Made by a program: the position numbers and the translations under genes. Positions 12,991 through 55,942 of a DNA stretch of 64,000 nt are shown here, in pieces. Each line of letters begins with the position of its first letter. The stretch's first letter is position 1. This DNA is from Geosiphon pyriformis (Eukaryota; Glomeromycota; Glomeromycetes; Archaeosporales; Geosiphonaceae), in the NCBI GenBank assembly GCA_016748015.1, contig JAAOMT010000302.1, positions 481,430-545,429 of the forward strand, given 5' to 3'. Under the pieces are notes generated by a model. That model saw only the letters and a list, made by a program, of their open reading frames with translations, was not told the DNA's origin and did not search any database.

Positions 12991-13000
12991 GTGTTATTTT

Positions 13001-13017
13001 TATAGAAGAGCACCAAA
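13001..13017 (-). other. Primer-binding site-like sequence next to the 5' LTR
   Basis: On the minus strand the LTR end GGTAACA is followed by TT and then TGGTGCTCTTCTATA. TGG complements the CCA end of a tRNA. The equivalent at 16,100-16,112 reads TGGTGCTCTCTC. The primer tRNA is not identified. Confidence 0.45.
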
Positions 13018-16064: not shown

Positions 16065-16112
16065 TACTTTAAAGTTGTTATTGCTGTGTTATTTCTGTGA
16101 GAGAGCACCAAA

Positions 16113-17088
16113 TGTTACTGGAGATTTTTGGTTTTTTTTCTTGAATGTTGTTAATGTTGATTTGCTGTGAATTCATATTTTCAAGAAGTAGTTGGACCTC
16201 CAATAACTGAATTTAGCTTCAAATTATCTTTTATAATTTGAACTACTGGGCTTATAAGTAAAATAGCCAATTTCATGTCAGTTATTTTGTATAGTTACAT
16301 TGTATTAAACATCAACTCTTTTCCAGAAATTGTTTGTCTAGAAGCTTACTAAAATTGTGTAGTTACTTTGCTGTGAAAATCAACTCTTCTATAGAAATCT
16401 TGTCTGTAGGCTACCCTAATGATTATAATAAGAAAAATAAAAATAAAAATAAAAAAAATGAAATTCTAACAAAAGAAACGTTTTCTATTTAGGCCTGGAG
16501 TTACTAACAAATTACTGAAATTAGTAGTTAATCAATTTCAAAATATTAGTTGTGTTGAGAGATTTCAAGTGTAATAATTAAAGAATTTGGTTTTTCGAAT
16601 ATTTAATTTTTATTTAATATATATAAAAGATAATTTGTTCTAATTAAAATATCTAAAATAAGATACAATGATAAGATACTATAAGAAGATACTATGAGAA
16701 AATACATTTTCTTGAAGAGAGAAGCTTTTCTTTTATACAACTTGTTATAATACTAGTTTTTGAATTTGCACTTTTCTCTTTGCTACAATTTTGGTAAACT
16801 AAAGATACATTTTAGCAAACTACAAGTTATTTTACTGAACTATTAATTATTTCAGCCAATTTTCATTGATTTCGACAAATTTTGATTATATTAAATGGTT
16901 TAGGGTATTGTGTAATTTGATTATCTTAATTTTTATAGTACAAATTGAATTATTGATTGAGTAATAATATTTGATAATTTGATTAAATAATAAGTGATAA
17001 TTAAAATAATAATAATATATGCTAATTAATAATAAGAATTATGAGAGTAATTTCATGCTAATTAATAGCTAAAATTCTACTGGTAACA
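16113..17088 (-). repeat. 5' LTR of the second, truncated LTR element
   Basis: 976 bases from TGTTACTGGAG to CTACTGGTAACA. A TGGTGCTC primer-site-like sequence lies just inside it at 16,100-16,110 (minus strand). The right end abuts LINE ORF1 sequence at 17,089, so the LTR sits inside LINE copy L2. Confidence 0.85.
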
Positions 17089-18282
17089 TTGGGTTGTGGT
17101 TATTAAAGAAATTTCTATGGACATGCCAAAAGAAATGATTGTTGCTACAGTATCCGAATTTGGTGAAATTAAGTCAATCAAAATTCAGTTAATTGGAATG
17201 TAATAGAAGACTGTAGTGGAATTCACCAAATTAGGTCAGGCTAAACAGTTGGCTGCTAAATAATTCTTCTTGATTGGTAAAAATTCAGTGCATGTGACTA
17301 TGACTGTAAAAGATCACAATACCTGGACATTAAGAAATCAGTTTAGAACTTTTTTATTTACTTTGTCTGTAAGAACAACTGCTTATAATTTGGGCACTTT
17401 TTTAAATGGAGTTGGTAATAAAACATGCATTATCAATTGCTCATTTAATACTGGCAACCAGATTTGCTGTGCTGTGATTAGTTTTAAATCTGATAAGAAT
17501 TTGGATTTTGCATATTGTATTAAGCCAATATTTGGTAACATTAAACTTTTTTGGGCTAAGTTGAATTTGATTTATTGTAAGAAGTGTGAGCATTTTGGTC
17601 ATTCTGCTTTGAAGTGTGATATGCCAACTACATCCATCTCTAAGTCTTCAAAAACCTTTAAAAGAATTATTTCAAAAGTACACTGTTTTCAGTTGACAAA
17701 ACTGTATACAAAGAAGAGTGTTCCTATCTCCTGTTTTGCTGTCTTTGGTAACAAGTCTTGGACACAAATAGTTTTTCTTGCTTCTTCTTCTGGTGGTTTC
17801 CATTTTAGTTTCAGTTCTGGGTCTGGTTTTTCTCTTCTTGGTGCTTCATATGACAAAAAAAGCACTCTGGTTACTTAAAATGGTTCTTCAATTGGTGATT
17901 GTCTGGCTTCACTAAAATGCTCTTTGGAATTGCTGGCTGATCAAATATTAGGTATTGTGCACAAATTAAATGGTATGGAGCTGGTGCCTCTGGTATCTGT
18001 CTTTCAAGTTAAACTTCTGGTTGTTTCTGCTCTTATGTTGTCAACGTCAGATACTAATATGGTTTTGGATGTTCTATGGCTATTTTTTCTTTTTTTATCT
18101 CTTCTGTAATAAAAGACAAGGTGGTGGATTTGGATCTAAATAGTTCAAAAGTTCTTATTTCTAAGATTGGCAGTTTGGAATTCAAGATGGTGGCTTTTGA
18201 AGTTTCTATTGGCTCAATTTTGGAGAAGTTAAATCTGTTGTATGTGAATTTGGATTTTTTAATACATTATTTTTCTCAATAA
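17089..18282 (+). pseudogene. LINE ORF1, 3' two thirds (copy L2)
   Basis: Starts within the RRM-like domain, at the codons equivalent to 38,405 in copy L4, because the LTR replaced the 5' part. It continues V-S-E-F-G-E-I-K-S-I-K-I, then TAA-TAG where copy L3 has W-Q. L-I-G-K-N-S-V follows, and then an intact CCHC knuckle C-K-K-C-E-H-F-G-H-S-A-L-K-C (about 17,577-17,618). It ends ...F-S-Q at TAA 18,280-18,282. ORF1 proteins of this kind bind the element RNA. Stops lie at 17,201, 17,204, 17,260 and 17,876. Confidence 0.75.
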
Positions 18283-28229: not shown

Positions 28230-31200
28230 ATGATATGATCTGGAAAGTTGCAACTTGTAATGTTAGAGAAATAAACAATCCTGCAAAACAGGATGATATC
28301 ATTTGTTGGCATAAGGAAATGGACAATATAGTTTTTATTTTTACGGAATCAAAGTTAAAAGGGAAGGTTCATCCCTGGATTGTCAACAAATTTGATGGTG
28401 TGTGGGTGTTTACCTCTGGTTTAGAATCTGATTATCTGGGTGCTGGTGTTGTGGTTGTTATGAACTCTTTATTGGTGAGACATGTGAGCAAAATTTCAAA
28501 AGTCCCTGGTTGGCTTCTATCTATCAAGCTGCTCTTCAAAAATAAACTTTTGGTATCAATTTTGGGGCTTTACACTGGTGCCTCTTTGGTAGCTTGGTTT
28601 TTTCAGGCTGGCGATATTAACTCTCTTATTGCAAAGACTGTCAATAAATTTTTTTTTATTATCCTTGGTGGTAACTTCAATAAGAATGGATCTTATAGGA
28701 GTGCAAGTTTCAAAAAATGTGTTGATTTGGGACTGGTTAATTTTTTGGTCAATAGCTCGGCTGTTAAGGAGCCTACTTGGGCAAACTCTAGGGATATTAT
28801 GAAAATGATTGACTTTGTGTTTGTTTCTCCAAGTCTGGTAAATGTGATTGTGCATTGGGAGGTTTTGGAGGTTGGTGGGCATTTTGACATGGATCACAAA
28901 GCTGTTTCCATGTCTGTGAGTCTGGGTGGTCTTTTGAATATGCAGTTGATATCTTTTCGCAAACAAGCAAATAAAAATCATTGGAAGTTCAATTTCAAGA
29001 ATGCTAGTAAGGATAAGTGGAATAATTTTAAGTATGTCACATTGGCCAATGCAGCAATATTCTCAGATGAGTTTATTGTGGCTTCAAGGTTCTCAAATTT
29101 AGATGCAATGTGGGATATTATTCGTAAGATTGTAATTCTCTTAGTTAATGAAATATTTAGAAAAAAATGGTTTAGGAACTTTAATCACAATTTTACTAAG
29201 AAATTTTCGAGGTTTTATAGATTAGAACTTTTGGTTTCTAAGATTGCTGGGACCTCTTATGAGGATGGTGTTGACAAATTTGTCTCTCTTATAAGGTGTT
29301 GGCATTCTTTGGACAATGCTAGGGCTTTAGTTGTTCAAGAGTTGTTGGACTCTAGTGCAGCCTTTGATCAAGTTCATTCTGCTTTTTTTGGTACTAGGAA
29401 ATCATATCATGCTTTGAAGCTTGCAGAATCTCTAAGGACTAAAGAAGTGAACATCAGGTCAGCTATTGATAAAAGGATGGATAATTTCAAAACAAATAAA
29501 GGTCATACTATAAGAAGTGTATTAGAGTACTCATTTCACAAAGTGGTGTTAGACCACTTGGTCATTGATGACGAGCTGGTTTTAGAGCCTGATTTGGTTA
29601 AATCTAAGGTTGATATAATTATGGAAAGTTGGACTCGGAAGCATTGGATGGTTCCTGATGTTTTTAGTGAGTGGTGTCATCAGTATTAGTCTTTGGAATA
29701 TGTTTTTGATAGAGCTTTTTCTGGTGTGATGTGTTCAATTGGTTTTGATGAATTTTTTGAGATGGTTTCTGATCTACTTGATAGCAAAGCTGCTGGTCTT
29801 TCGGGTATCTCAAATAAGCTTTGGAAACAATATAATAGATCTGTTCTAAATATGCTCTTGGTGCTGCTGAACTCTTGTTTGTCTGGTGAATTTGTGCCCA
29901 GTACTTGAAGAAAGGCTTAGGTCTTGATGATTCTCAAACCTTATGAATGAGAAGGTGTTCTAACAAATACTTGCCCTATTGCATTAATAGAAACAGTTCA
30001 CAAGATTCTCTCTAATAGGATCTTCTCAGCTTGCAGTACTTATAATGTTCTTCATGAAGACAATTTTTCAGTTCTAAAGGATACAACAACTCAATCTCCT
30101 ATTTTTGCAATTGGGTTGGTCATTGAAGATGCTTTGGAGAAAAACTGAGAGATTTGGCTGGTGTTACAGGACATGCAAAAAGCATATAATTTTGTCAGCT
30201 GGGAACATCTTGAGAAAAGCCTGGTTAGGATCAAAATATGTAACAGATTTATTTGTTTTTTCAGTAATATTCATAAAAATCATACCAACCAAGTTATGAC
30301 AAATTTTTGTTTGTTAGGTGGTTATTGTGTGCATAATGGTTTGGACCAAAAAAAGGTTTTCTTTTTCTTTCTGTGGCATATATTTTACAATCCTCTGTTG
30401 TGTGAAGTCAAGCATCAAAAGAGTACATATGGATACAGGATTAATTCTTACTTTATTTCCAGAAATGGTTGTGTAAAATCTCAGGCCAGAATTTTTTCCT
30501 TCTTTGCTGCTGGTGCTTTTGTCAACAATACAATTTGGGTTGGCCACAGTTAGAGTGCTACTTAACACATTTTTGATGTTGCTAGTGAGTTTTTCCGAAT
30601 TAATGACATTTTTATAAATAATAATAAAACAGTGACCATTCTCATTAACAGCAAAATCAGCAATCCTTCTCTTTTTATCAGTGGTGCACCCATCTCTATC
30701 ACCAAAAAGAGGGAGTCTTATTAATATTTGGGTATTTTTCTTTTATTTAAGGGTCTTTTGAAGCTTAGTTTAGCTAAGGCACATTCGGATGTTTATTTTT
30801 TTGCCAATCTGGTCCTGAAAAAAGCTGTATTAAATAAGAAATTCTTGTACTTGGTGTTAGCAGTTCTCCATTCTATTGTCAATTACAGAACTCAGTTCAG
30901 CTTTGTTTCTGTTGGTGTGTGTAATAAGTGGGATGCTCTAATTTGTAAAGGCTTAAAGTTTAAGTCTGGTCTGTTTCTCGACTTTCTTAGTAATACATTA
31001 CACCATTTCTTATTTTATGGTCTAAAATTCTTCTTGTAAATTCAATCTGAGAGTAAGATTGCTTTACTTGTTAGCTTTGTAAACTCTGGTGGGATTTTGG
31101 GTCACTTGTTTTCTCACTGGTCACATGACTTGCAGGTTTGATGTTGGCACCCTGTTTATCCATTGGTATTTTCTGTTCATATTCATATTAGTGCTTCTAA

Positions 31201-32901
31201 TAATTTTCTGGCAGGCTTGGTTTGTATTTTTCTTGATTGTAATTTATCTTTGAGTGGCCCTTTGGTCAATTCTTTTTGGTTGTGTGATGGAGTGGCCATG
31301 TCAGTTGTTTTGGATGAGTCTAAGTTTGTCAAGTTTCTCCCTTCTCTCCAGTGGTATGATATTGCTTTTGTGGATTAACTTCATGATCGTCATGGTGCTG
31401 TTTTTGATTGGTACACCTTTAAGCAGTGGAAGAGATTAGACCCCTGTGGATCTATTCCAGAGTGGTTTAAGCTGTTCACTGCATTTTTCAATGATGTGAC
31501 TTTGTCTCCACCTCATCCCTTGGCTGGGTATGGTGGTGTTTCTTCAGACATTTGTAGTTTTGGTAACTTTGTGTCTGTTTGTGATCGTCTTTTGCAGATT
31601 GATACTGGTGCTTTATCTGTGTACACAGATGGATCCTTAAAAAATCTGGACATGGCCAACTGTAGGGCTGGTGCTGCCGCCTTTTTTGAGAACATTGGTT
31701 TGGGTTTGGGTGTTGGTGTGTTAGGTTTAATGTCTTCTACTTTGGCTGAATTGCAAGCTATTGTACTGGCTCTGAAGTGTGCTTCTTTATCTAGTTCTAT
31801 TCATCTGTTTTCGGATAGTCAACCTGCTCTGGATGCTTGCAAGTCAGAACTGGGTCTGATGTGTCCTGATTTTTGTAATCAATGTTGGGTTGAACATTAA
31901 CATATTGCTGATATTATTTGTGGTAAAAATTTAAGGGTTTGTTGGCACAAAGTGAAAGGCCACTCTGGTGTTTTGGGGAATGAATGAATTGACATAATTG
32001 CTGATGCCACTTCTCTTTTGGGCTGGTGTTTTCCTCTTCACTTGGATGAGCATTTTATTGTGTCTAATTATGGTGTGGTTTCTGACAATTCTAGACATTT
32101 TGTTCATGATATCTATCATTCCATTTGTCATGCATATTAGAAGATTAGTTCTGGTTCAAGGTTCTTAGAAGGCAGTTTGCTTTCTGATATTGATTGGGTC
32201 CACTCTTTGTTGGTGTGGCATCCTGATTTGCATATGGCTACTGGTTTTACTAGCTGGTCCTTAGCTAATGCATGCACATACTTCATGAAAGCTTTATATT
32301 ATCACTTGTCCATTGCTGTTCAGAAGCATCTTTATAGTAGGCTTTATCCCAATGTGTTGTGCTTGTATTGTGGTGAAGTAAAAGTGTCAGATCATGCATT
32401 CTCTTGTAAGGTTGACAAAGCTGCCTGCCACCAGTTATTGGACTTCCATGTGAGTTCTTGGAAGGCACTTTTTGGCTTTGCTCATTTTTCTTTGTGTGTA
32501 TTGTAGCTGTTGTCATCTTGTTCTCCTGATGCTTCTGTGTGTACAGCTCTTTTCAAGTGTTTTGTTTTTGATGGTTGGTTCCACAAAGCTGTTTCCATTT
32601 TTTATGATCTCAAGATTGCTAGTATAGAGGTTATTAAATTTGTGTACTCTCTTAGTATGGCTTTTAGGAATAATATTTGGTTGATTCACGCCAAGCACTG
32701 TGTCTATATAAAAAAAATGGTTTGATTCTCCTTGATAGTTCAGCAATCATCCCAGTTTCTGGTTTGGCTTTAGGGTTTTTTGTTGGTGTATTAAAATTGC
32801 TTGGCATTGCTGATGCTTTCAGTGTGTGTTTTGGTTTTTGCAAATCTTGTTTGTTTTTTCCAGGTGTTAACGGCTCAGTATCAATTTATATAGCTACATA
32901 G
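28226..32901 (+). pseudogene. LINE ORF2 polyprotein (copy L3)
   Basis: ATG at 28,226 overlaps the ORF1 stop as ATGA. The first 487 codons are open to TAG at 29,687-29,689. The endonuclease (28,226-28,930) has V-A-T-C-N-V-R, G-G-N-F-N where G-D-F-N is expected, I-D-F-V-F-V-S, and D-M-D-H. The reverse transcriptase (about 29,690-30,720) has F-V-N-N in place of F-V-D-D. The RNase H (about 31,600-32,010) has intact Y-T-D-G-S, A-E-L-Q-A and F-S-D-S, and G-H-S-G-V-L-G-N-E. The terminal zinc motif C-L-Y-C...H...C (about 32,359-32,407) is intact. It nicks target DNA and primes reverse transcription there; this copy cannot work. Confidence 0.85.
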
Positions 32902-32910
32902 TATTGTTCT

Positions 32911-32931
32911 GATCAGCCCAAGTGGCTGGTC
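32911..32931 (+). other. LINE 3' UTR stem-loop (copy L3)
   Basis: 5' arm GATCAGCC, loop CAAGT, 3' arm GGCTGGTC. All eight positions pair, with a single G-U. It sits nine bases past the ORF2 stop. Confidence 0.65.
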
Positions 32932-33030
32932 GCGTATAGAAAATGTATAATTCATGCCTAATTTAGATCATTTCTTTGATGTATAACATTAGGTAGTGTT
33001 TGGATTTCACTCGTTAAGCAAATAAAAAAA

Positions 33031-34429
33031 ATATATATTTTTATTAATATAATTTAAAATTTAAAATTTACAATTATGTTTTAAAAATAGTAATCAAAAA
33101 ATATAAACAATTAATCTGTTTTAATTATATTAATTATATTTAAATTCAATTATTTAAATTATTAAGTCTTATTAAATAAGCTCAAATTAAATTAGTTAAT
33201 TTAAAAATAATTAATATATTTAAAATAATATTAATATAATATATAGATTGATATTAATTTAAATATATATACAGTTTTTTTATAAGTTGAAAAAAGTATT
33301 AATTTTATTAAATTATAATTTTATAATAATTAATAGATTATTTTTGTATTTTTGTAATTTTTTTTATATGTATACTTTTTTATTAAAAAAAATTGATTTA
33401 AAATAAATAAAATTATATAAAAAATTTATGTTTTATAAATATATTAAATATATTATAAATAAAATTATCTTTAATATTTTATAACTTTTTGATAATTTTA
33501 TCTTTATTTTTTAAAATTAATTATTTAAAAATTACAATTTTTTAATAGTTAATTAAAATTCTGATTTAAATTTGGTTTGTTAATTTATTTTGTTTTTTGT
33601 ATTTTATATAATATTTAATAATATTAATTTGGTTCTTGTTTAAAAATAAATAATAATAATATAATAATTATTTACTTTAAAAACATTTTTTAAAATCTTT
33701 TTTTTTGTATATTATAAAATAAATTTATATAATTATGTTTATTTTATAATTAAAAAAAATATAATATATAATATAAACATTATTAAATAAAAATAATATA
33801 ATAAATTTTGTTTAAATTTTTTTAGTATTAAAATAAATAATAATAAATTTTACTTTGTTATTTATAATAAAAACACAATTAATAATACAAATTTTTTTAT
33901 TTAATTTTTATTATTATATTTTAATATGTAATCTAATTATTTAATACAATATTTTACTTAAATTAAATATAATTTACATATTTTTTACATGTAATTAAAC
34001 ATAAATTCAGCTTAAACTAAACTATATTAAATTTAAAAAAAAAAAAATTATTTTATATAAAACTAAAACCAAAAAATTATTATTTATAATAATATTACTT
34101 AATTATTTTATAGTTTTATTTAAATTAAACTTAATATTATTAAGTTAATACTTTTAAAAAGTAATTAATCTAGTATAAACTTTATTATTTAAAAATTTAT
34201 TATTAAATTTTTTTATATAATTAGTATTAAATTACAATTAATTTTAATTATATTTATATTTAAAAAAAGCTTATTTATAATTTTATCAAGAATAAACATA
34301 TTATATTAAATAATACTAATAATATTTTTAAGCTCTATATACAAAATAGAAAAAATATTTAAAAAAATAATAATTAAAATAATTAACAAATTAATTGGCT
34401 TAATAACAGATTTAATAAAAATAACCAAA
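33031..34429. other. AT-rich stretch without a gene
   Basis: Homopolymer-rich A/T sequence. I see no CpG and no reading frame worth reporting. It is probably ancient element sequence beyond recognition. Confidence 0.55.
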
Positions 34430-37740: not shown

Positions 37741-39603
37741 ATGTCTAAAAAAAAGGCACCAAAGGGTGCTTTTTATAGTCCTGCTGGTGGTTTTTTCTCA
37801 CAGAAAAAAAAAGTTGTGTTTGAGAATGTCAAACACTCAAGTAACAAAAAGGATATCTCTCTGTACAAGTCTAAGCTTGATAACAATGTGTTCTCTGATG
37901 TGAATAGTGTGTCTGGTAATGAAAAAAGTGCTAACATGATTGGCATTGATGTTGGGTCTCTTTTGGATTTAACTGCCAACACTCCTAAAGCCAAGCATAT
38001 CAATACTGGTGCCATTTTTGGTTCCTCTCTGGGTTCTCCTAATTTTGTCATGGATGATAATGAAGATATCTCTTTTTCTTTTTGTCTTTCAATCTCTCTG
38101 AAAAAGAAATGGATTGACCTTAAAATTATTAAGACTCAGGTTGAAATGTCTGCCAAAAAATTTTTCACTCTTGATATTAATCTTAGTGCTGTAGAAGGGA
38201 AATCAGTGACAGCAAAAACCCAGTTAATTAAAAATTTTTTTTCATTAGTCAATGATTTTGGAGGGGCCACTACCCCCTCAAAATTTAAGGGGATCATTAG
38301 ATTTATGTTTACTTTTGAGGAGAGCATGATTAAGGCCGCATCATTGGCCAGAGAAAAAAGGATTGTTATAAACAGCGATCTTAGGAGACAAGAAATGAGG
38401 TCAGATTGGGCTGTGATAATCAAGGAAATTCCCATGGATACACCTAAGGATATGATCATCACCACAGTATCCGAATTTGGGGAAATTAAGTCAATTAAAA
38501 TTCAACTAATTGGAATGTAGCAGAAGGCTGTAATGGAGTTTGCTGAATTAAGCCAAGCTGATTTGTTAGTCTTTAAGTGGTCATTCCTGATTGGTAAGGA
38601 CTCTGTGCACATGGCCAAAGCAGTGAAAAATTGTAAAACTTGGGCTTCAAGAGATTGGTTCAGAGTGCTTCTGTTTATCTTGCTAGTGAGAACAACAGCA
38701 CATAATCTTGGAACTCTTCTGGATAGGGCTAGTGAGAAAACTTGCATTATAAACAGATCTTTAGAAACCAGTAATAGGATTTGTTGTGCTGTAATCGGTT
38801 TTGAATTTGACAATGATCTGAAATCTGCTTTTTGCATGGAGCCAATTCTTGAGAGTGTTAAACTTTCTTGGACAAAGATGGATCTGGTTTGGTATGAAAA
38901 ATGTGGGAAGTTTGGTCATTCTGCTCTAGAATGTGATACACTTGTTGTATCTCCATCTAAGCCCTTAAGAACATTTAAAAGAGTTGCTTCTGATGGATAT
39001 TGTCTTCAATTGACAAAGTTGTATGAAAAGAAAGGTGTTCCAATATCTTGGCCGGCTGCCTTTGGTGACAAATCTTGGGCTCAAGTGGTCTCACTTGCTG
39101 GTCCTTCTGGTGGTTCTTGTTTCAGTAATAGTTCTGGTTCTAGTCTCCCCCTTTTTGGTGCCTTAGATTCAATCAATGATTCTTCTCTCATCTTAGCTAA
39201 CAACTCTTCTTTGAATAATTGTCTGAACATTTTGGAACACTCTTTGGAGCTCTTGATGGATCAGGTGTCCAGTATATTGAAAAAGTTAAGTGGTATAGAA
39301 CTGGTACCAATGGTGATTCCTTCTAGTGTTCTTCCTCCAGCCACTTCTGCCCCCTTGGTACCACATTTGGATGTGGATATGGCTTTAGATGATATGACAT
39401 TGGCTTCCACTTCCACTCCTCTTCTCTTAGCTATTAATGACGTTATCCATGATTCTAGTTCTAGTTTTTCCAAAGTTTTGACCTTCAAGATGGGTGAATT
39501 GAAATTAAAAATGGTAGCTTTTGAGGTTTCAATTGGTTTAGTTTTGGAAAGGTTAGATCATCTGTGTTCTGGTGCAGGTTCTTCAGCTCTCCTTCTGTCT
39601 TAA
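37741..39603 (+). pseudogene. LINE ORF1 with one internal stop (copy L4)
   Basis: I take the ATG at 37,741 as the start; it is followed by M-S-K-K-K-A-P-K-G. The frame is open for 259 codons to TAG at 38,518-38,520, where copy L3 has Trp (TGG). It then continues in the same frame to TAA at 39,601-39,603, about 620 residues in all. G-F-G-G-A-T-T-P-S-K-F lies at about 38,260 and the RRM-like domain at about 38,410-38,630. In the zinc knuckle (38,891-38,935, Y-E-K-C-G-K-F-G-H-S-A-L-E-C) the first Cys is Tyr. A Ser/Leu-rich tail follows. The protein would coat the element RNA. Confidence 0.8.
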
Positions 39604-42600
39604 TGACCAGTCTAGTTTGGAAGATTGCCACTTGCAATGTTAGAGGGATAAACAATCCTGCCAAGCAGGATAATATTATTCATTGGCACAAAAATATGAA
39701 CAATTTGATTTCAATTTTTACTGAGACAAAGTTAAAAGGCAGAGTTCATTCTTGGATCACTAATAAATTTGATGGTGTTTGTGTTTTTATTTCTGGTCTG
39801 GATTCTGGTCACTTGGATTCTGGTGTGGCAATTGTCATGAACAACTCTCTGGCAAGGCATGTTTGTAAGGTTTCTAAGATGCCTAGACAGCTCCTCTCTA
39901 TTAGATTACTTTTTAATAACAAACTTTTTATTATGATTTTGGGACTGTATGCTGGTGCTTTTTTGGATGTTTGGTTTTCTCAGGCTGGCAACATCAATTT
40001 GCTAATTGTCAGGACTGTAAACAAATCTTTTTTTGTTGTGCTGAGTGGTGATTTTAATAAGAATAGTTCACATAAGAGTGCCAGTTTTAAGAAATACTCA
40101 GACCTCAGCTTGGTTAATTCTTTGGGTGGGAATTTGTTTGCCAAAATGCCAATGTGGGCTAACTTCCAAGGTGTTTTTAAGACTATTGATTACATATTTG
40201 TTTCTTACAACTTGGTTAGTGTGGTAATTAATCATGGTGTAGTCGATGTTGGTGACCATTTTAACTCTGATCATAGAGCAGTTTCTGTGTGTATAGACTT
40301 GGGTGGACTATTAGATATGCATCTGAATTTCATTTGCAGACAAGCAAATAAGGATTATTGGAAGTATGATATCAAAAGTGCTGACAATGTTAAGTGGTGT
40401 AGGTTTAAAGTGTCAATGGCAGCAAATGCTATTATGTTTTCTGAGGAGTTTGCTTCCTCTGTGGTTTCCTCTGATCTGAATTCTATGTGGGATATTGTTC
40501 GTAAAGTGATGGTTTTTTCGGCTAATGATTTATTTAAGAAAAAATGATTCAAAGACTTTGATAACATTTTTATCAAGGGCTCTTCTAGGTTTCACAGATT
40601 GGAAATTTTGGTTTTGAGAATAGTCAAAGTGTTTCGTGGCCAGAACTTTGTAAGGTTTATATCTTTGATAAGTCATTGGGATTTCTTGGACTCTGACAAA
40701 GCCTTGGCAGTACAGATTCTTTTGGACTCTGGTGCAAATTTTAATTGTGTTAGAACTGCTCTTTTTGGTGTGTGAAAATTTTATCATGCCTCCAAACTCG
40801 CCAAATCTTTAAGGACTTGGGAGTTAAGTATTAAGTCTACTATTGATAGGCATATAGAGAGCTTTGCTTCTAATAAAGATTACACTATTAAGAGTGTTTT
40901 AGAATATCTATTCTATAAGATGGAATTAAACCATCTAGTTGTTGGTGACAAATTGATTTTAGAGCCTGAATTGGTCAAAGCTAAGGTGGATGTGATTATG
41001 GAAGGGTAGACTAGGAGATACAAGATGGTTTCTAATATCTCTAGTAAATGATCTTGTTAATACCAGTCTCTGGAGTATGTTTTTGATGGTGCTTTTTTAG
41101 GTGTGATGCAGCCGATTGTTTTTGATGAATTGTTTGGTGTGATTTCTGATCTGCTTGATAGCAAAGCTGCTGGTCTTTTTGGCATCTCCAACAAATTTTG
41201 GAAGCACTGTAACAACTCTGTCATATGTATGCTTTTAGAGCTTTTGAACACTTGTTTAATTATTGAATCTGTGCCTAGTTTTTGGAAGGAGGCTTGGATC
41301 TTGATGATTCCTAAACCATACAAATGAGAGAGAGTTCTCATGAACACCCATCTTATTGCCCTAATTAAAATGGCCCATAAGATTCTCTTCAAGATCCTGT
41401 CTGATAGGATTTTTCTGGCATGTAGCAGATTCAATGTTCTTTATGGTGACAACTTTTCTGTTTTAAAGAGTATTTCTACACAATTACCCATTTTCACAGT
41501 TGGCTCAGTAATAGAGGATGTTCTGGAGAAGAACTGCGAACTCTGGCTAGTTTTACAGAACATGCATAAGGCATATGATTCTGTTGGTTGGAAGCATCTT
41601 AGGAGGAGTTTGATTAAGATTAAAATATGTAGCAAGTTCATATATTTTTTTGGTAGTATTCATTGCAATCACATCAACAAGATTATAATTGACTTTAGCT
41701 TAACTGATAGATATCATGTTCATGATGGCTTGGATCAGAGGGAGGTTTTCTTGCCACTTCTCTAGCACATATTCTATGATCCTCTTTTTTGTAAGGTTAA
41801 GAGACAGGAAAGTGTGTGTGAGTACAGATTAAATTCTTATTTTATCTCAAAAAATGGTCGTCCAAAACCAATTACTGGGTTGTCTTTCTTTTTTGCTGCT
41901 AGAGCTTTCGTCAATGATACAATTTGGGTTGGTAGCAGTCAGAGTGCTATTCAGCATATTCTCAATGTTGCCAGTAAATTTTTTCAGGTCAATGACATTT
42001 TTATTAATACAGACAAGACTGTTGCCATCTCTATTAATTACAAAGTTGGTAGTCTTTTTTTGGTTATCAGTGGTTCACCTATTGCTATTGCAAAAAGAGG
42101 GGAATCTCATCGATATCTGAACATCTATCTTTTAACTGAGGGTCTTTCAAAGTCTAGCTTGGCCAAAGCACAGTCAGATGTTTAGTTTTTCTCTAACCTT
42201 GTGCTAAGAAAAGCCATTTCAGATAAACAATTTTTGTACTTAGTTTTGGCTGTTCTTTATCCTATTGTGAGCTATAGAACTCAATTCAGCTTTGTACCTT
42301 TTGATGTGTGCAACAAATGAGATACTTTGGTTCAAAAAGGCTTTAAATTGAAATCCAGTCTTTCTTTTGACTTCCCAAATGATTCGATCCACCACTCTTC
42401 TCTTTATGGTTTGAAGTCCTTTGAGCAGGTGCAATCTGAAGACAAAATAGCCTCACTTGTGAGTTTCGCGAACTCTGGTGGGACTTTGGGTTGTATGTTC
42501 TCTCATAGGTCTCATGACTTGCAAGTTTTGTGTTGGCATCCCATTCACTCCCTGAGTTCCCCAGTGCATGTTTGCATTAGTTCTTTAAATAATTTTTTAG

Positions 42601-44283
42601 CTGGTGTAGTCTGTATTTTGGCAAAAAATAATCTTTTTCTGAGTGGATCTTTGGACAATCCATTTTGTTATTGTGATAGAGTTTTTATGTCAGTGGTTTT
42701 TGGGAAAGTTAAGTTCTGTGCATGTCTCTCCTCTTTACATCAGTATAATGTTGTCTTTGTAGATCAGCTTTGTGATCATCATGGTGCCGTTTTTAATTGG
42801 AAAATTTTTAAGTGCTGGAAGAGGTTGGATCCTTGTGGTCCAATTCCTGAGTGGTTTGGTTTTTCTGTTACCTTTCTTAGTAATGTGGCTTCTTTTTCTC
42901 CTGGTTCATCTCTCCTTGAGGATGTTGGTAAGCTTTTGAATATTCTGAAGTCTCAAGAATTTAAGTTGGTATGTGATCAGTTGTCTTATATTAGTACTGA
43001 TAATCTGTTTGTCTATATGGATGGCTCTTTAAGAGATTTGGGCACCATATGGAGGAAGGCTGGGGCTGTTGTCTTTTTTAACAACATTGGTTTGGGTTTG
43101 GGCATAAGAGTCACTGGCTTGTTGTCTTCCACTTTGGTGGAGCTACAGGCCATAGCTCTGATATTGGAATGTGTTCCTTCTCTTAGCTCAGTCTGCTTAT
43201 ATTCTGATAGTTAGGCTGCTTTGGATGCATGCAAATTGGAGCTATGTCTTATTTGTCTGGATTTTTGTATTTAAGTGTCAGCATATTGTGAACATTATTC
43301 ATTGCAAAAATTTAAGGGTGAATTGGATTAAAGTGAAAGATCACTTAGGTATTATAGGGAATGATTATGCAAACACCCTTGTTGTTGTTGTCTCTAATTC
43401 TAATTGGCACTTTTCCCTCCGTTTGAAAGACCATTGTCTTTTAGCCAGTAATGAGCTTGTTTTTGATAATTCTAGGCATTTTGTTTAGGATGTTTTTAGA
43501 TCAGTTTATCATGTGCATTAAGAAGTTGGTTCTGGCTCAAAATTTCTGGTGAGTGATTTGGTATCGGACGTTGATTGGTTGAGATCCTTCTTGGTATGGC
43601 ATTCTGATTTGCATATGGCTATAGGCTTCATAAGCAAATCATCTGCTGGCTTGCGTACATATTTTATGAAGGTCTTACATCATTGACTGCCTGTTGCTGT
43701 GCAGAAGCAACTATACTCCAGACATTACCCTAGTGTATTATGTTTGTTCTATGGTGAAGTTGAATTTTCTGATCATGTTTTCTCTTGTGTAATTGACCTC
43801 TCTACTTACTGTTAGTTGTTAGAAACTTATGCAGCTTTCTAAGAGCTGATTTCTGGTCTTTTTCATTCCTCTTTTTGTGTGTTTCAGCTTCTGTTGTTTT
43901 GTGCTTTTGATGTCTCTGTGTTCACAGTCCTTTTTAAAAATTTTGTTTTTGATGATTGGTTTCAGGAAGCTGTGTCTGCCTTTCATGATCCCAAACTCGT
44001 GGGTCAAAAAATTGTGGAATTCATGTGCACTTTCAGTCTTAGCTTCAAGGATAGCATATGGTCAGTTCGTGCTAGACACTGAGCCCTTATGGAAAAAAAT
44101 GAATTGATTTTACCTGATGGTTTAATACCTGCTTCGATTTTTGGTCTGTCATTAGGGCTGTCTGCTGGTATTGTTAGGTTGCTTGAAATTGCTGATGCTT
44201 TTGGTGTTTGTTTTGGTTTCTGTAGGTCATGTTCATTCTTTTCTGGTATTGGCAATAATGTTTCAGTTCATATAGCTGTGTAG
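39603..44283 (+). pseudogene. LINE ORF2 polyprotein (copy L4)
   Basis: ATG at 39,603 shares its A with the ORF1 stop (TAATG). The first 314 codons are open to TGA 40,545-40,547. The endonuclease (39,603-40,310) is intact at G-D-F-N (about 40,047) and S-D-H-R (about 40,268). The reverse transcriptase (about 41,090-42,130) has F-V-N-D instead of F-V-D-D. The RNase H (about 43,010-43,390) keeps Y-M-D-G-S, V-E-L-Q-A and Y-S-D-S, then meets TAG at 43,213. In the terminal zinc motif the second Cys is Tyr (about 43,748). It ends with TAG 44,281-44,283. Further stops lie around 40,774, 41,007, 41,049, 41,325, 41,763 and 42,183. Confidence 0.85.
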
Positions 44284-44292
44284 TGGTGTCTT

Positions 44293-44313
44293 AATTAGTC
44301 TGAGTGGCTGGTC
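44293..44313 (+). other. LINE 3' UTR stem-loop (copy L4)
   Basis: 5' arm AATTAGTC, loop TGAGT, 3' arm GGCTGGTC. Seven of eight positions pair; the outermost is A-C. Confidence 0.55.
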
Positions 44314-44412
44314 ACATGTAGAAAAAGCATGATTCATACCTAGTTTAAGTTATTTGTATAATGTATTATATTAGGTGGTGTTTGGACTTTACTCATAAAA
44401 AAAAAAAAAAAA

Positions 44413-45048
44413 CTTTTTAAATAATAATAATATCATTAATTGCAAAAAATAGTAATTGTTTTTTTACTTTTTGTTTTAATTATATTCATAAAAAATAAAA
44501 AAACGTGATTTTCTATATTATGTTTAAATATAATTGATATTTTTATTTTACTTTAATTAATTTGTTTTTTAAATATACTTTATAAAATTAATAATATGAT
44601 ATACCAATTTAATAAAAAACATATTAGTTTTCAAATATTTATAAATGTTATTATAAAAACTTTCAAACAACAAAAGTTTTAAATAATTAAAACAGCTATA
44701 ACAACAGTAATAATCATTATTATTTTGAGAAAACTAATCAAGGTTTGATTATGTTAACTATAATAACCATAATAATCATAAATATTTTGTTTATATATTT
44801 TCTTTTAAATTACTGTGATTCGAAAATAATTTTGCTTTTTATTCTCATTTAGTTTAAAAGTCAACTTTTTCACATGATTTTCTATTGAATTATTCGCTTT
44901 GAAGCCGGCTTAAAATAATGAGCCGATCATCGGTTCATAACCAACAATTGTTTTTCGTCCAAGACTCCGACTAGATTTTACCTTTCACGCGGATCACGTT
45001 GCTATACAAGTTGTGACAATATAAGTTTACAAGATAGAGTAACATAAC
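44413..45048. other. Transition from AT-rich repeat to host sequence, upstream of GOLPH3
   Basis: The first part (about 44,440-44,540) resembles the right arm of family B (36,420-36,470 and 51,215-51,270). From about 44,870 CpG reappears (for example in GGATCACGTTG at 44,991-45,001). The 5' flank of the next gene must lie here; I cannot name a promoter element. Confidence 0.5.
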
Positions 45049-46282
45049 ATGGCTTCAGCGGGTGGTTTATCAAGACGGCGCAATGCGGGAGCACTTGCTA
45101 CTTCTGGTTCATCATCAAACGAAACCTCCTTTCCCCTCAGCTTAGATCGTAACCTAATTTCTGACAGTGGTGTAAAGATCGCCATTGATCCAAAGGACTT
45201 GATTGATGATGAAGATAGGCGCCAGCCAAAACTTACACTGATGGAGGAAGTCTTATTACTTGGACTGAAGGATAAACAAGTATGGCCTATATTATCACTT
45301 ACCTATATGCATACTTTGTCAGACTCAAGGAAAATCCCTGTTTATTCATTTCATTTTCCACTGCAATTTATCTCACAAGGGCTATCTCTCTTTCTGGAAT
45401 GATAATATCTCCTACACGCTTAGGGGTTGTATTCTTATTGAGCTTGCACTTCGTGGGCGGATAGCGATGAATAAAGATCCCAATCGTCGTAAATTCCCTC
45501 TATCTGATAGATATATTGAGGTTCTAGATGATAAGTTGACCGGCGAAGTTCTGCTAGATGAGGCATTAAAAATGATGAAGGCCAGTGAAAAAATGAGCGT
45601 TGGCAGTTGGATCGATCTCATGAGTGGTGAGTTTGATGCCCAAAAGGCAAGCGTCAAATATCAATTTGAGTTGAACAAAACCAAATAATATCTGAGGGAT
45701 ATAAATAGTCTTTTAACTTTGAAATTAACTACTATTCTCATTTATAAACATTCTCTATTCAATGGTGTAATTGATTCTTTGATCTCGCCAGGGGAAACAT
45801 GGAATGTTATGAAGATTGGGTATCAACTAAAGCAAGTTCGGGAACGTTTGGCTAAAGGATTGGTAGATAAAGGCATTTTACGAACGGAAAAACGGAATTT
45901 CCTTCTATTCGATATGGCCACGCATCCTGTCAGTGACTCATCTGCTAAAGAAGAAATTGTGAAACGGGTTATTACCACGCTCATTACTCATTCTTCTGCC
46001 ACTGCTTCGTCAGATCCTGATATACCTTTTAGTTCATTGCGCACAATTTCAATGGTCTGTGCAGCATATGCAGCCAATGTGCTGGAAAATGCTATAGCAC
46101 AACTTAATCATGAAAGTCGTGAACGGGCCTACGCAAAAGTTGATGAATTATTAAGCGAGTATTCCACTTTTCCGTTTACCTCCACAGTTTCTCGAATCGA
46201 TATTCCTGAAGGAAAAGACTTGCAGGTTGAGGTCGTGGCCGCTGTGTTAAATGTATTTACAAAGATGGACAGCATTTTGTAA
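45049..46282 (+). CDS. VPS74: GOLPH3/Vps74 family Golgi PI4P-binding protein, three exons
   Basis: Join 45,049-45,279, 45,380-45,626 and 45,792-46,282: 322 residues, in the range of yeast Vps74 and human GOLPH3. Introns are 100 and 165 bases (GTATGG...CACAAG, phase 0; GTGAGT...GCCAG, phase 1). Joining restores the continuous family sequence L-G-L-K-D-K-Q / G-Y-L-S-F-W-N-D and L-M-S-G / E-T-W-N. The Trp in F-W-N-D, the Arg in T-L-R-G and the two Arg in V-R-E-R-L-A-K match residues known to bind phosphatidylinositol 4-phosphate. The N-terminal S-R-R-R resembles the Arg cluster that contacts COPI. The family retains glycosyltransferases in the Golgi. The gene looks intact and normal in base use. 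Confidence 0.93.
45280..45379 (+). other. Intron 1 of the GOLPH3 gene
   Basis: 100 bases, GTATGG to ACAAG. It is partly open in frame, so a direct reading would miss the true second exon. Confidence 0.85.
45627..45791 (+). other. Intron 2 of the GOLPH3 gene
   Basis: 165 bases, GTGAGT to GCCAG. Reading through meets TAA at 45,686. Confidence 0.9.
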
Positions 46283-47139
46283 CATCGTATCACATAGCGT
46301 CACAGATTACAATAAGGAGATGAATAGCAACCCGAAAGGATGCTCATAGGAACCCGGATGAGAGGAAGCCTTGAAATCCCCACGATTTGTGTGCAAATAT
46401 TGGACTGGGTGGTGATGGGTAGGCAGGACGATGATTTGGTTTGTATGTTAGATCTTTTGGTGATCGATTATTTTAGTTTTATTTAATAAGCATTGCAAAG
46501 ACATGCATTCGATTTAATGTTAGACAGGTTCTATCATATTTTTGGATTTATTATTTTAGAGACACTTTAATTATCAAGAGAAACATTCGTTTTTTCTATG
46601 CTCTTACGGATTATACACTACACTAAACTTCCTACACTATAGCGGAAAATTAGTATTTATTTTAGCCTGATCGAAATTCTGTTCTCACTAATACTACATT
46701 CTCATCTTCAAAAGTCAGGTTGACAAATTATATATATTGATTTGAGTCAACAAGTAGCCCCCCTTCGCGTCCTTTGTGCTAAAAATCTCCAATTTCATCT
46801 CCATCGAGTTCTTAGGAGTATTTGGATTCCATTACAAGTAAATCGTTGGATTTTTTTGCAGAAGTTTCTGTTTAGATTACCAAAAACATGCAACTTTTGT
46901 ATGCTAGCCTTTTAAGGCTCGCTATTGGACTACGCGACTTCTATATTTCTTCCGAATATTCTTGAGTAGACCGATTTTTCGGTTTATGCGTATTACCGTA
47001 CATCATGCTACACCTTAACGAGATAAAAAAAACAGAAATATATATTTATAGAAACTATTTTTGATTTTCTCGTTTGTTCATTTATCAGGTTCAAAAATAG
47101 CGAGAATAAATACCCCTCTTTTCCGAGCTAATTTCTCAA
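46283..47139. other. 3' flank of GOLPH3 and intergenic sequence
   Basis: Normal base composition with CpG, but no long frame and no RNA gene I can see. It probably includes the GOLPH3 3' UTR. Confidence 0.55.
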
Positions 47140-47559
47140 AATGTTGATACCCACCACAACCTCTGCTACCAAGAAAGGTTACTTCTCGTCCATGTCTAGT
47201 GCAAAGCAAAAAGAGGATCTTGAGTGACAAAAACAACTTCGCCCCGAGTCTCGACATATGATTTCGCCCGCAATATCGGCTCTGGCGTCGACTTTAAGCT
47301 AAGGCTAAAGACCCTACTAGAACGAATAAGCCATGGTGCTGTCTCGGAGGTTGCCATTACCCATTGTGATTGACTGCCTGTTTGCCATTGACCTCTTCCT
47401 CTAATATATCTTTTCCCTCTATTCTGCAAAACTCGTGGTTTTCTTCGACGATGCGATATCTAACGGGCACAAACTCTTCGAACATATTCTTGCCGTCAAC
47501 ACAGTCTTCATCTGCAGCATGCAGGGAAGGAGAGCTGTTTGCTACTGAAGAGAACACTG
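47140..47559. other. Possible 5' region of the Fanzor relic
   Basis: An ATG at 47,141 opens about 28 codons (M-L-I-P-T-T-T-S-A-T-K-K), then TGA. Further short frames on both strands exist, without recognisable domains. Fanzor proteins often have long N-terminal extensions, so this may belong to the relic downstream; that is conjecture. Confidence 0.25.
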
Positions 47560-48880
47560 GGACAAAAAGCGCGACAGGAACCCGTGGCAAACGCCAGAAG
47601 ACGATGGTATCTCCAACCACAGGTTACTAGTCAAGGTGTATCTCAACCACTCTCAGAAGCAGCTATTGAAGCGGTGGATGACTTTTCTTTAATATTGTGG
47701 TAGGATGGAGCAAAAGGCGTCACAAAATTATGAAACAAGATGGTATCAGAGAAGAAGGATGGTTAAAACCTATGACGGTTCAATAAAAATGTCTTCTTTT
47801 TGATGATGTTTCGACTATCTGGGGAAAGAAAATTTTGCAGAGCCATTGTCCGTCTTGGGATGTTTTCAAGAGGTTGCTTAGGCTCAGTTCCTGCCAATAT
47901 TACAGACGAAGCGATTGGTCAAGCTTTGGTTGGGCGAAAGGAAGTTATTAAACGTATATCATCTTTCTTTTCAATCTCATAAAGCCATCACATAAAAATT
48001 CATGCTCAGGATTTTGCTGAGTTGCCTTGGAATCCCTTCTATGTATCTTACCTTCACACTCCAGCGATATTTCATTTGCACATCGACACAAGACAAAGGT
48101 AATAAATTTTTACGTTTTTGTTTTTTAAAATTGGTTTATGCTATTTTTTACTCTTTATTTTTAAGGATAAATATGTACTATGGGCTCTCCACTTCGAAGA
48201 TCATATGTGATGGCAAGCTCATTTACTATGGTAAAACTAATGATTGGAAGTTTGCCTGGGTATAAGATACGCAAAAGCAGCTCTGCGAAGCCTAAGGTGA
48301 TGGCTCTGTTCATGCAGTTTCCATAGATCCTGGCATTCGCACTCCATTTATATGGTATTACCCGACAAAAGGTGTAGGCAAAATAGGCTCTTGTGCCACC
48401 AGTTGTATTTTTCGCCTCTGCAAATTTATGGATGACCTTTGTTCAAAGAACGATAAATTAAATACCTCTTCAAAACATAAGAAAGCTAAAACCAGAAGAT
48501 TAGAAAAGGCGATTGGGTGGATGCATCAAAAGATCTTACACTTACAGACAGAAATACACAGAAAGGCTGTCACATTTTTTACTCACGAATTTGATTTCTC
48601 CCTTCGAGATTTCGGATATGGTGAATCGAAAACGAGAAAATCACACGAAAAACAGTTAGAAAGATGCTACGCTCGCACTATCGATTTCGTCAACGCCTGA
48701 TCACAAAGGCCGAGGAATTAGAGGTCCAAGACTAGTCAGTGTGGCAACATCCAAAAATGTACAACTGCCGGAATTGTGGGATTGTGATGGAGATCTTCCT
48801 TTGGTCCTACAGTGACCATGCAGGAAATAATAGAAATGTTTAGTTACAATCCATCCGAATACACTATGTACTAATTGAGC
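47560..48880 (+). pseudogene. Relic of a Fanzor/TnpB-type RNA-guided nuclease
   Basis: Pieces in several plus frames follow the family order. K-V-Y-L-N-H-S-Q-K-Q-L-L-K-R-W-M (47,633-47,680) resembles the N-terminal helix. V-P-A-N-I-T-D-E-A-I (about 47,889) comes next. S-I-D-P-G-I-R-T-P-F (48,320-48,349) contains the first RuvC Asp. T-R-K-T-V-R-K-M-L-R-S-H-Y-R-F-R-Q-R-L (about 48,643-48,699) is the helix before the zinc ribbon. S-K-T-S-Q-C-G-N-I-Q (48,728-48,757) and Y-N-C-R-N-C-G-I-V-M (about 48,761-48,790) are the ribbon halves in different frames. A TAA (48,289), a one-base loss near 48,640, a TAG (48,733) and a gap after G-I-V-M that removes the third RuvC Asp make it inactive. An intron may lie at 48,100-48,164. 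Confidence 0.72.
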
Positions 48881-53735: not shown

Positions 53736-55060
53736 ATATAATATAAAATTTGTCATAAATTATATAGAATTAAAGAAAAGGAATTATGGGGGTTTCACTG
53801 AATATGAATGGTAATGAGAAAATTATGTTTATTTGAAAATATCAAAAAATTATTTAATCAATAAAGATAATGCCTCAGTAATTATCTTACTGGCTTGATT
53901 CAAATTATGTGCCAAAGAATAAATTTATATGAAATTCACCAATTTTTTCAAAATGACTTACATTACAATACTCATAAGAAGGATGTCAAAGACTTATTAA
54001 GAAAATATGAAACTCATTTGTTAAAAAAAAATTAATCAAAAAGCAAAGAAAATTACAAATTATAGCCTTGTAGTATTGTACATTACAGTCATTATTGAAT
54101 GCATATCATTTTTGAATCAACGGAGAAATAAGACCACAAAAAAAATTCAACAAATATTTATTTGTTACTAATAAGGAATGGTACAGCCTATAACGCCACA
54201 ATTCATATGGAGAATGTAGTCCTTCGAGATGGGAATCTAGCATTTGATGCAAATTAAAATAAAGGAAACACTAATCAAAATTATAAAAGAGAATAGTTTT
54301 AAGTAAGAGTTATTGGAAAAAAAACACGTTTTTCAAAGAGCACGCCTCTCTAAAATTCAATTATTCACTCAATGAGTGTTGTTAAGAAATAATTAAAATA
54401 TGGAGTATATTCAATTTCTTAAGACAGTAACCAAGAACAAAAATTTGGAATTGAAAAACAATATCATTAGTTTTTTAGAGACGGGATAAATGTGAAAAAT
54501 TTTCCTATGAAAAGCTTCGACTCATTTTCCTTTTTTTAAACCAAAAAACTAAGTCATTTACTTTTAAGGTCGAAAAAAATACTGACAAAACTGGTGTAAA
54601 ACTCCCAAAGCAATACATGCATAAGAATGGGCGAAGATCTTGCCGCTCATAATCGAATTCAAAATTTTGAGGCGTGGGTCATATCAATAAAAATTTTAAT
54701 CAAAGACTATAAAAAGTTCAATTCAAAAAATCTTAATCAAAGACTGTTGATGAAAATTCTAGAAGCCTAATTTTAGCATTCTAACGGCCCTGAAACCAAA
54801 AAAAAATCATTTGAATTGAGGAAACTTAATTTAACAATTTTATAATCAAAATTCAAGCCACCTCGAAAACTATTTAACCAAACGGTTTTGCCTTTAAGAT
54901 TTTTTGGCAACCAAAATTCAATTTCTTGTTTCAAATTAAGGCTCATTCTTAAGTAGGAGATAGTCTTGAAGGAAGATTAAGCAAAAGATTTTTCTTTGAA
55001 AAAAGTTTCTTGGAACTTGTATAACTTTTACCTTTTCGAGATCCACTTAATTTTCAAAAA
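53736..55060. other. Intergenic region upstream of the HMG gene
   Basis: Mixed AT-rich sequence with short frames only. The last few dozen bases before 55,061 would be the 5' UTR of the HMG gene. Confidence 0.5.
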
Positions 55061-55942
55061 ATGAGTTATTTGGAAAATTCTTTTCCTAATAAAAATTCAG
55101 CTCCTGATCAATATGAAGTTAATATTTCATTGCAAGAATATCCTAAGCCCCCTTTCCCGCCCAATATAATTCCAGAACAATTGATTACGAATGCCCTGGC
55201 GAAACTGGAAAAAACGGGAAAGGTATCCCAAATACCAAATGCCTTCTTGATTTACAGATTGGTTTTGAAAAATGAAATGGTAAAGAAAAATATTTTTCTT
55301 GGCATGCGTGAATTATCTGGTATTGCTTCGAAACTCTGGAATGAAGAGCCTGAAAATGTTAAAACATATTATCAAGAACTTTCTAATGAAGCAAAAACAT
55401 TATTTCAAAACTTCTGGCAATCAACCTACTCACAAGTCCAAATGATGGCTGATTCGCAAACATTATCCAAGGAATTTGTATGGAAAAATGACCCATACCA
55501 ACAAGAGGCGATTAATTTTAACCTGGGTCACGATGAAGTTGAGTCGTTAACAAAAATCAATTCCCAATCCGAACTTGGGCAAACTTCCACAAGTTCCGAG
55601 TTCCCCAACTTATTAAAAAATATACCTCATGTTGAAAATCATCCTGGCTTTTCATTATTTACCGGTTTAAGTCCTAAGGCAGAAAATGTTTCAATACCAG
55701 ATCAGGAATCGAAAAATCTAGAGTTTTTCCAAGATGTCCCTAATTTAATATTACAATCTGATACTTTCGGTGAAGAATTGAATCTTCATCATAGAACAAT
55801 GCTCCTCGAGCAACTAGTTTTGAGCACACTTTCTGGTAAAAAAGATCCTTTCCTTGTTGATTTCTCGGCGAATAGCATTGTAGATCGGGTTGCTAACCTT
55901 GAAAATTTGATTGCTCAACTAATTTGGAATGGTTTAGAATAA
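55061..55942 (+). CDS. MATA_HMG-type HMG-box transcription factor
   Basis: Single open exon of 293 residues from ATG 55,061 to TAA. Residues about 57-118 form one HMG box: I-P-N-A-F-L-I-Y-R at the start of helix 1, L-S-G-I-A-S-K-L-W in helix 2, and E-P-E-N-V-K-T-Y-Y-Q-E-L-S-N-E-A-K in helix 3. This agrees with the fungal mating-type (MATA_HMG) subclass, which binds the DNA minor groove. The remaining 170 residues are Ser/Asn/Glu-rich without a domain I know. Arbuscular mycorrhizal fungi carry many dispersed HMG genes of this class, so it need not be the mating-type locus. No intron is needed; codon use is ordinary and the frame undamaged. Confidence 0.88.
   Translation: MSYLENSFPNKNSAPDQYEVNISLQEYPKPPFPPNIIPEQLITNALAKLEKTGKVSQIPNAFLIYRLVLKNEMVKKNIFLGMRELSGIASKLWNEEPENVKTYYQELSNEAKTLFQNFWQSTYSQVQMMADSQTLSKEFVWKNDPYQQEAINFNLGHDEVESLTKINSQSELGQTSTSSEFPNLLKNIPHVENHPGFSLFTGLSPKAENVSIPDQESKNLEFFQDVPNLILQSDTFGEELNLHHRTMLLEQLVLSTLSGKKDPFLVDFSANSIVDRVANLENLIAQLIWNGLE

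Follow-up and report, generated by a model that had tools for sequence, protein, structure and literature searches.

The 64-kb window analyzed here (the whole stretch of DNA, C342:481430-545429 of the 124.7-Mb, 406-contig assembly that was also the genome searched) contains a broken TnpB/Fanzor-like gene at 47,624-48,800. Upstream of it on the same strand, in the left half of the same element, is a broken IS607-type serine recombinase gene (TnpA) at 47,171-47,545, which went unnoticed in the initial annotation. The interval assigned there to the nuclease relic, 47,560-48,880, was too short, as the element runs from about 47,081 to 48,857 (Table 1). Comparison of the copies found in the genome revealed that the left leader of the window copy is common to its relatives.

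Table 1. Features of the element relic and two genes near it in the 64-kb window.
Feature	Position in window	Strand	Remarks
GPP34 gene	45,689-46,282		Pfam match
Element relic, very probably of IS607 type	47,081-48,857	+	First ~64 nt of the family's left end gone; right end retained, with deletions inside it
TnpA relic, start of recombinase domain (KKGYFSSMSSAKQKEDLE*QK)	47,171-47,233	+	Frame-tolerant score 56, control maximum 39
TnpA relic, middle (GSGVDFKLRLKTLLERISHGAVSEVAITHCD)	47,224-47,373	+	NF033518 (IS607 transposase) positions 91-128, E 0.022
TnpA relic, C-terminal part (AKLVVFFDDAISNGHKLFEHILAVNTVFICSMQGRRAVCY)	47,381-47,545	+	Score 145, control maximum 40
Fanzor N-terminal piece, HTH_OrfB_IS605-like in relatives	47,624-47,747	+	Score 143, composite query typed by hand, without control
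Putative GT-AG intron in Fanzor gene	48,099-48,165	+	Read from the sequence, compared with relatives by eye
Fanzor RuvC-I (SIDPGIRTP) and helical region after it	48,296-48,598	+	Open frame, genome matches
Helix ENEKITRKTVRKMLRSHYRFRQRLITKAEELEVQD	48,634-48,732	+	Frame differs from that of RuvC-I
Deletion site, ~36 nt	48,732-48,733	+	Alternative RuvC-II Glu and first zinc-ribbon Cys lost
Zinc ribbon, second half (CRNCGIVM)	48,766-48,789	+	Frame other than that of RuvC-I
Deletion site, ~24 nt	48,789-48,792	+	Last RuvC Asp lost, after GIVM
Element right end	48,801-48,857	+	3' arm of the relatives' stem-loop deleted in this copy
Right-end motif TTACAATCCATCCG	48,844-48,857	+	Shared with relatives
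HMG-box gene	55,025-55,942		Pfam match

Elsewhere in the window, two long blocks at 28,241-33,054 and 39,618-44,437 share 68% identity; an RNase H match over the cut-off lies at 31,379-31,900, and an endonuclease match just below the cut-off at 39,525-40,547. Both blocks are probably decayed non-LTR retrotransposons, and more partial copies of them are found at 0.9-1.6, 17-18 and 20-21 kb. A direct duplication of ~2.4 kb (11,636-13,993 and 14,730-17,091, 85% identity) has related pieces at 1-808, 4.2-5.2 kb and 23.6-24.5 kb. Spacers with ~7-15% GC at 23-26, 33-37 and 50-51 kb adjoin segments with 35-40% GC, and the HMG-box has at least 118 matches in the genome. Taken with the low GC and the size of the assembly, this would suit a host among fungi of the arbuscular-mycorrhizal type.

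The damage to the Fanzor gene was mapped by aligning the DNA of the window copy with that of seven relatives. The RuvC-I motif recognized in the initial annotation, SIDPGIRTP, lies inside a 134-aa open frame at 48,296-48,700, and the helix read there as R-K-M-L... was recovered as KMLRSHYRFRQRL from ~48,661, in a frame other than that of RuvC-I. The N-terminal pattern also proved to be a Fanzor/TnpB-like piece, by a score without control. Of the two zinc-ribbon halves that had been described, the second is present, but the first is without its first Cys; the segment gone at ~48,732 reads VIIQNExYTSKTC in the relatives. Where the window copy has the second deletion, the relatives read DRDENGAR, which bears out the proposal that the gap after GIVM removed the last RuvC Asp. 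In the window copy, DPG is kept and the alternative Glu, the first Cys and the last Asp are deleted; only about half of the zinc ribbon is left, and it is absent among the PF07282 matches in the genome. The frames do differ, as in the initial annotation, but some of the apparent shift ahead of RuvC-I may be due to a small GT-AG intron. With both proteins broken and catalytic residues lost, the window copy is dead, in agreement with the initial reading of broken frames and a deleted last RuvC Asp.

When seven pieces of the window copy, each from a single frame, were compared with Pfam, the matches were at chance level only, the best match of any window Fanzor or TnpA piece being to an unrelated family (E 0.04), and a PDB search with the window RuvC piece returned nothing relevant. 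Given that the window pieces score poorly alone, their membership in the Fanzor and TnpA families rests on their relatives. Among these, L014 matched PF07282 with an E-value of 9.4e-14, over the cut-off, and guided_TnpB (NCBIfam) with 3e-11; L021 also matched guided_TnpB (6.1e-10), and the N-terminal piece of L033 matched PF12323 (HTH_OrfB_IS605) with 4.7e-7, over the cut-off. Both guided_TnpB matches, like all other NCBIfam matches in this study, were below the curated full-length cut-offs, which is to be expected of fragments. The best PDB match of L014 was the TnpB-like L79 (9b0l; 3.9e-11 with a single sequence), and a profile of six pieces matched the same entry with 2.8e-16.

The published Fanzor pattern consists of DPG, a Glu six residues before the first Cys and CxxC-x(12-18)-CxxC-x(4-8)-D, with 120-160 residues between DPG and Glu (PMC10711439, accessible text). 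The E-x6-C, CxxC-x13-CxxC and x6-D spacings read from the coordinates of L014 all fit this pattern, and in L017 the distance from DPG to Glu is ~135-145 residues, a hand estimate across two frameshifts. In 35 copies (34 loci and the window copy, taken mainly from among the top matches in a larger set), the RuvC-I D was kept in 21 and the full DPG in 11, uncovered copies being counted as misses, while the alternative E was kept in 23, all four Cys in 9 and the last D in 18. The predicted proteins of the family thus have the features of Fanzor, namely a C4 zinc ribbon, DPG and the alternative Glu with its Cys spacings, and the initial identification of a Fanzor/TnpB relic holds through the relatives' PF07282 and PF12323 matches over the cut-offs, guided_TnpB and the signature of DPG and alternative Glu. 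Our use of the name Fanzor2 is based on the presence of an IS607 partner and on L79 being the best match, rather than on a tree.

The expectation that intact relatives are likely was not supported. None of the same 35 copies had an open, nearly complete reading from RuvC to the zinc ribbon, and no open frame was longer than 273 aa among the matches listed, although the gene may hold introns. D, E and D were all kept in six of the 35, and together with all four Cys only in L015, which has four frameshifts. L009 came closest to being in frame, but its DNA shows a stop.

The window TnpA pieces are colinear with NF033518 but match it weakly: in addition to the middle piece (Table 1), 47,405-47,548 matches positions 141-183 with an E-value of 0.11. 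Stronger NF033518 matches were found in the relatives L062 (1.8e-13; 50 bits, the full-length cut-off being 110), L064 (1.1e-8), L061 (1.2e-7) and L018 (2.7e-7), and the relatives of the first window piece in L061 and L063 match positions 47-74. Three real TnpA pieces were then used as frame-tolerant queries, with reversed sequences as the control, against the window copy and 63 loci that had been picked for matching the Fanzor gene, the ends or PF00239. The window copy scored above the control with all three, its middle stretch at 47,257-47,413 reaching 118 versus a control maximum of 45. The three pieces exceeded the highest reversed-sequence control in 29, 40 and 42 of the 64, which are not genome-wide rates, since the loci were preselected and include the query sources as well as L061/L065, a duplicated pair. 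Among the scores that pass, a few of the lowest (that of L004 for the second piece, for example) come from the Fanzor part and probably reflect chance.

Resolvase (PF00239) had five matches in the genome, three of them over the cut-off (C200, C310 and C397). Those at C397, C348 and C354, the latter two below the cut-off, each precede a Fanzor match on the same strand by ~0.2-0.9 kb; no Fanzor match was near the one at C200 among the matches listed. The C310 and C397 matches are identical in sequence. It should be noted that L061 (C397:2000-4700) and L065 (at the end of C310) contain the same reading frames near a contig start and at a contig end, respectively, and are possibly duplicated contig ends or haplotigs.

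The helix-turn-helix of bacterial IS607 TnpA lies within the first 46 model positions. The TnpA pieces of this family match only positions 47-184 of NF033518, the first 46 being without counterpart, and no helix-turn-helix was found in the upstream residues of L061 and L063; as all copies are broken, the ancestor may nevertheless have had one. Since an IS607-type serine recombinase lies upstream of the nuclease in the same element, the element is assigned to the IS607-Fanzor2 type.

Different copies terminate on the right at ACAATCCATCCG and begin on the left at C(C)GATGAAAAG, in both cases next to unrelated sequence. In 58 loci and the window copy, the left end was mapped in 19, the right end in 31 and both ends in 11. 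No target-site duplication of constant length was found in these 11 copies, the ends of which are decayed. Decayed CCG-like triplets at both ends are compatible with a short recombination core, and the inverted match between the ends is ~6 bp long and imperfect, as judged by eye. A circle-junction pattern gave 90 matches versus 114 for the control and was thus not above it. Published IS607-Fanzor2 elements are described as having neither terminal inverted repeats (TIR) nor target-site duplications (TSD) (PMC3627910, accessible text), and IS607 recombinases as inserting at dinucleotides (PMC10711439, likewise).

These ends and the recombinase also bear on the proposal that the relic is of the Fanzor1 type and belonged to an ordinary cut-and-paste transposon (MuDR, Mariner etc.), as in other early-diverging fungi. 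MuDR-like ends and 9-bp duplications accompany Fanzor1 in Rhizopus, Phycomyces and Mucor (PMC3627910), Fz1 is widespread in fungi (PMC10432273), both as given in the accessible text, and in L040, one of the 11 copies with both ends, the flanks are loosely similar. We nevertheless regard this origin as quite improbable, given the IS607 TnpA within the same element, the lack of a constant duplication, the short and imperfect inverted match between the ends and a best PDB match to the mimivirus-type L79; furthermore, the accessible text of PMC10711439 reports no Fanzor1 in IS607 elements, and that of PMC10432273 describes Fz2 as likewise broadly present in fungi. The MuDR-like 9-bp duplication that L040 suggested was ruled out by the other 10 copies.

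Searched against the genome, the 134-aa RuvC piece of the window copy gave at least 149 matches at E ≤ 0.01, its own place included (best 150 of 194 candidates scored, some places being matched more than once). The best of the 148 further matches had an E-value of 3.7e-50, and their number shows that the sequence is not due to chance. The PF07282 zinc ribbon had at least 117 matches, at least 68 of them over the curated cut-off (one only together with its neighbors), and the best, 2.8e-18, is a copy of the second subfamily described below. An 81-aa zinc-ribbon query, which was typed, gave at least 150 matches at E ≤ 0.001 (best 150 of 278 candidates). Given these many matches of the RuvC piece and the zinc ribbon, the window copy is a member of a large repeat family, for which ~196 places were estimated, weak matches included, from 199 start positions chosen by hand among the matches of the three queries.

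Of the 40 left-end matches scored, 18 had no Fanzor match within 3.5 kb. Eight of these 18 loci (L037-L044) and three of six corresponding right-end loci (L045-L047) were fetched, and more of the same element was found past the end in five of the former (L037-L040 and L042) and in all three of the latter. No transposase was recognized, by reading, in the open frames of at least 150 aa in L037-L047. L041 and L044 have further stretches in common (66-77% identity) beyond the left end of the element, some of them inverted and repeated. In viral contigs, a single-protein query found no match, and with an alignment as the query, 20 loci were found whose local identity is 33-67%.

The position of the window copy near host genes, such as that for GPP34, would be consistent with a domesticated, non-mobile Fanzor-derived host gene instead of a transposon relic. 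The abundance of RuvC-piece matches, the common termini followed by unrelated flanks and the broken frames in the copies examined make domestication extremely improbable for the family, and its own broken frames refute it for the window copy.

A second Fanzor subfamily was seen at four loci, in three of which (L009, L011 and L035) an intron-like stretch interrupts RuvC-I; the fourth, L012, is without the region. In L009, this stretch is bounded by GTAAGT and AG and interrupts the Trp codon of DPGVCTFQTW-YSPT, so that its flanks read as in the first subfamily. The GT is lost in L011 and the AG in L035. The three loci had at first seemed to be without the RuvC-I Asp, from which the idea of a "dead-master Fanzor" arose; this idea was dropped, because the DNA shows that the apparent absence is caused by the intron-like stretch.

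TnpA and TnpB are bacterial families, which could point to bacterial contamination or a recent bacterial insertion. The chance of either is negligible in our judgment, as the matches are spread over many contigs of the assembly and one subfamily has an intron-like stretch inside RuvC-I. The window copy is also old, sharing only 66-77% identity with the 15 copies that it matches over the greatest length. In comparison with 36 other copies (matches of at least 300 nt), its identity averaged 70.9%, the best being 77.5%.

The initial annotation had also suggested looking for a conserved guide-RNA scaffold in the 3' flanks of the copies. The right end is conserved and foldable; in the window copy, some of the sequence that its relatives conserve there is missing. 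When seven right ends were folded singly, their z-scores ranged from -0.10 to -2.97; a hairpin with AATAATAG/CTATTATT-like arms formed in six of the seven folds (not in L017), and a closing stem, GAUGGA/UCCAUC, with the last bases in two (L048 and L046). RNAalifold gave no consensus structure on 26 of 33 right ends, the remaining seven having been left out as incomplete or divergent. A structure named by hand had 86.7% standard pairs versus 86.6% in shuffles, so that covariation gives no support, and it surpassed slid versions of itself (34.8-55.3% standard pairs), a weak gain, as the structure was derived from the same sequences. From the single folds, a guide RNA in the right end is plausible.

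Taken together, the locus is very probably a dead IS607-type transposon, with TnpA, a Fanzor2-type nuclease downstream on the same strand and a right end that would have been the 3' part of the guide RNA. In its ancestor, excision and insertion of the element would have been carried out by TnpA, the target being a short C/G-rich core that is not duplicated. Fanzor2, carrying the RNA of the right end, may have cut emptied or allelic donor sites, whose repair would have restored the element. A more specific version, in which an IS607 element whose recombinase is shortened and has lost the usual N-terminal DNA-binding domain reached ~150-200 copies chiefly through homing-like, Fanzor2-driven repair copying and gained introns along the way, the recombinase being secondary, seems unlikely to us.

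As an IS607-type Fanzor2 element, the family can be set beside known systems, for which PMC3627910 and PMC10711439 are cited here from their accessible portions. The IS607-like Fanzor2 elements ACa-1/-2 of Acanthamoeba, CRv-1 and ISvMimi likewise combine a TnpA_IS607-like serine recombinase with Fanzor2 and have neither TIR nor TSD (PMC3627910); the 11 copies studied here, with their decayed ends, show no constant duplication. In contrast to them, the present family belongs to a probably fungal genome and is of high copy number, all examined copies are broken, RuvC-I contains an intron-like stretch in one subfamily, and the recombinase pieces match nothing in the initial 46 positions of the bacterial IS607 model. 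Fanzor2 is likewise found in the yeasts Ashbya, Eremothecium, Saccharomyces and Torulaspora, for which the accessible text lists one family per species and names no serine recombinase (PMC3627910). The bacterial IS607 pro-Fanzor TnpBs share DPG in RuvC-I, the IS607 TnpA partner and the alternative Glu six residues before the first Cys (PMC10711439), whereas the present family resides in a eukaryotic host, has putative introns and is decayed. The fungal Fanzor1 elements SPu-1 of Spizellomyces, MCi of Mucor and ROr of Rhizopus have a TnpB-like C-terminal half as well, but are carried by eukaryotic transposons of other kinds, several of which have TIRs and TSDs (PMC3627910), unlike the present family with its IS607 recombinase. 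For Rhizophagus, no report of Fanzor elements was found in the accessible parts of the open PMC literature, and none of IS607 in the open PMC literature.

An element of this kind is already known; it is ordinary as a kind and mildly interesting as a large decayed family. The single copy in the window has no functional importance. As a whole, the family records heavy past multiplication of an IS607-Fanzor2 element in this genome, followed by decay. The fossil series left behind, with common ends, many copies and subfamilies with and without the intron-like stretch, lends itself to studying the adaptation of a bacterial RNA-guided nuclease system to a eukaryote and its loss from that host.
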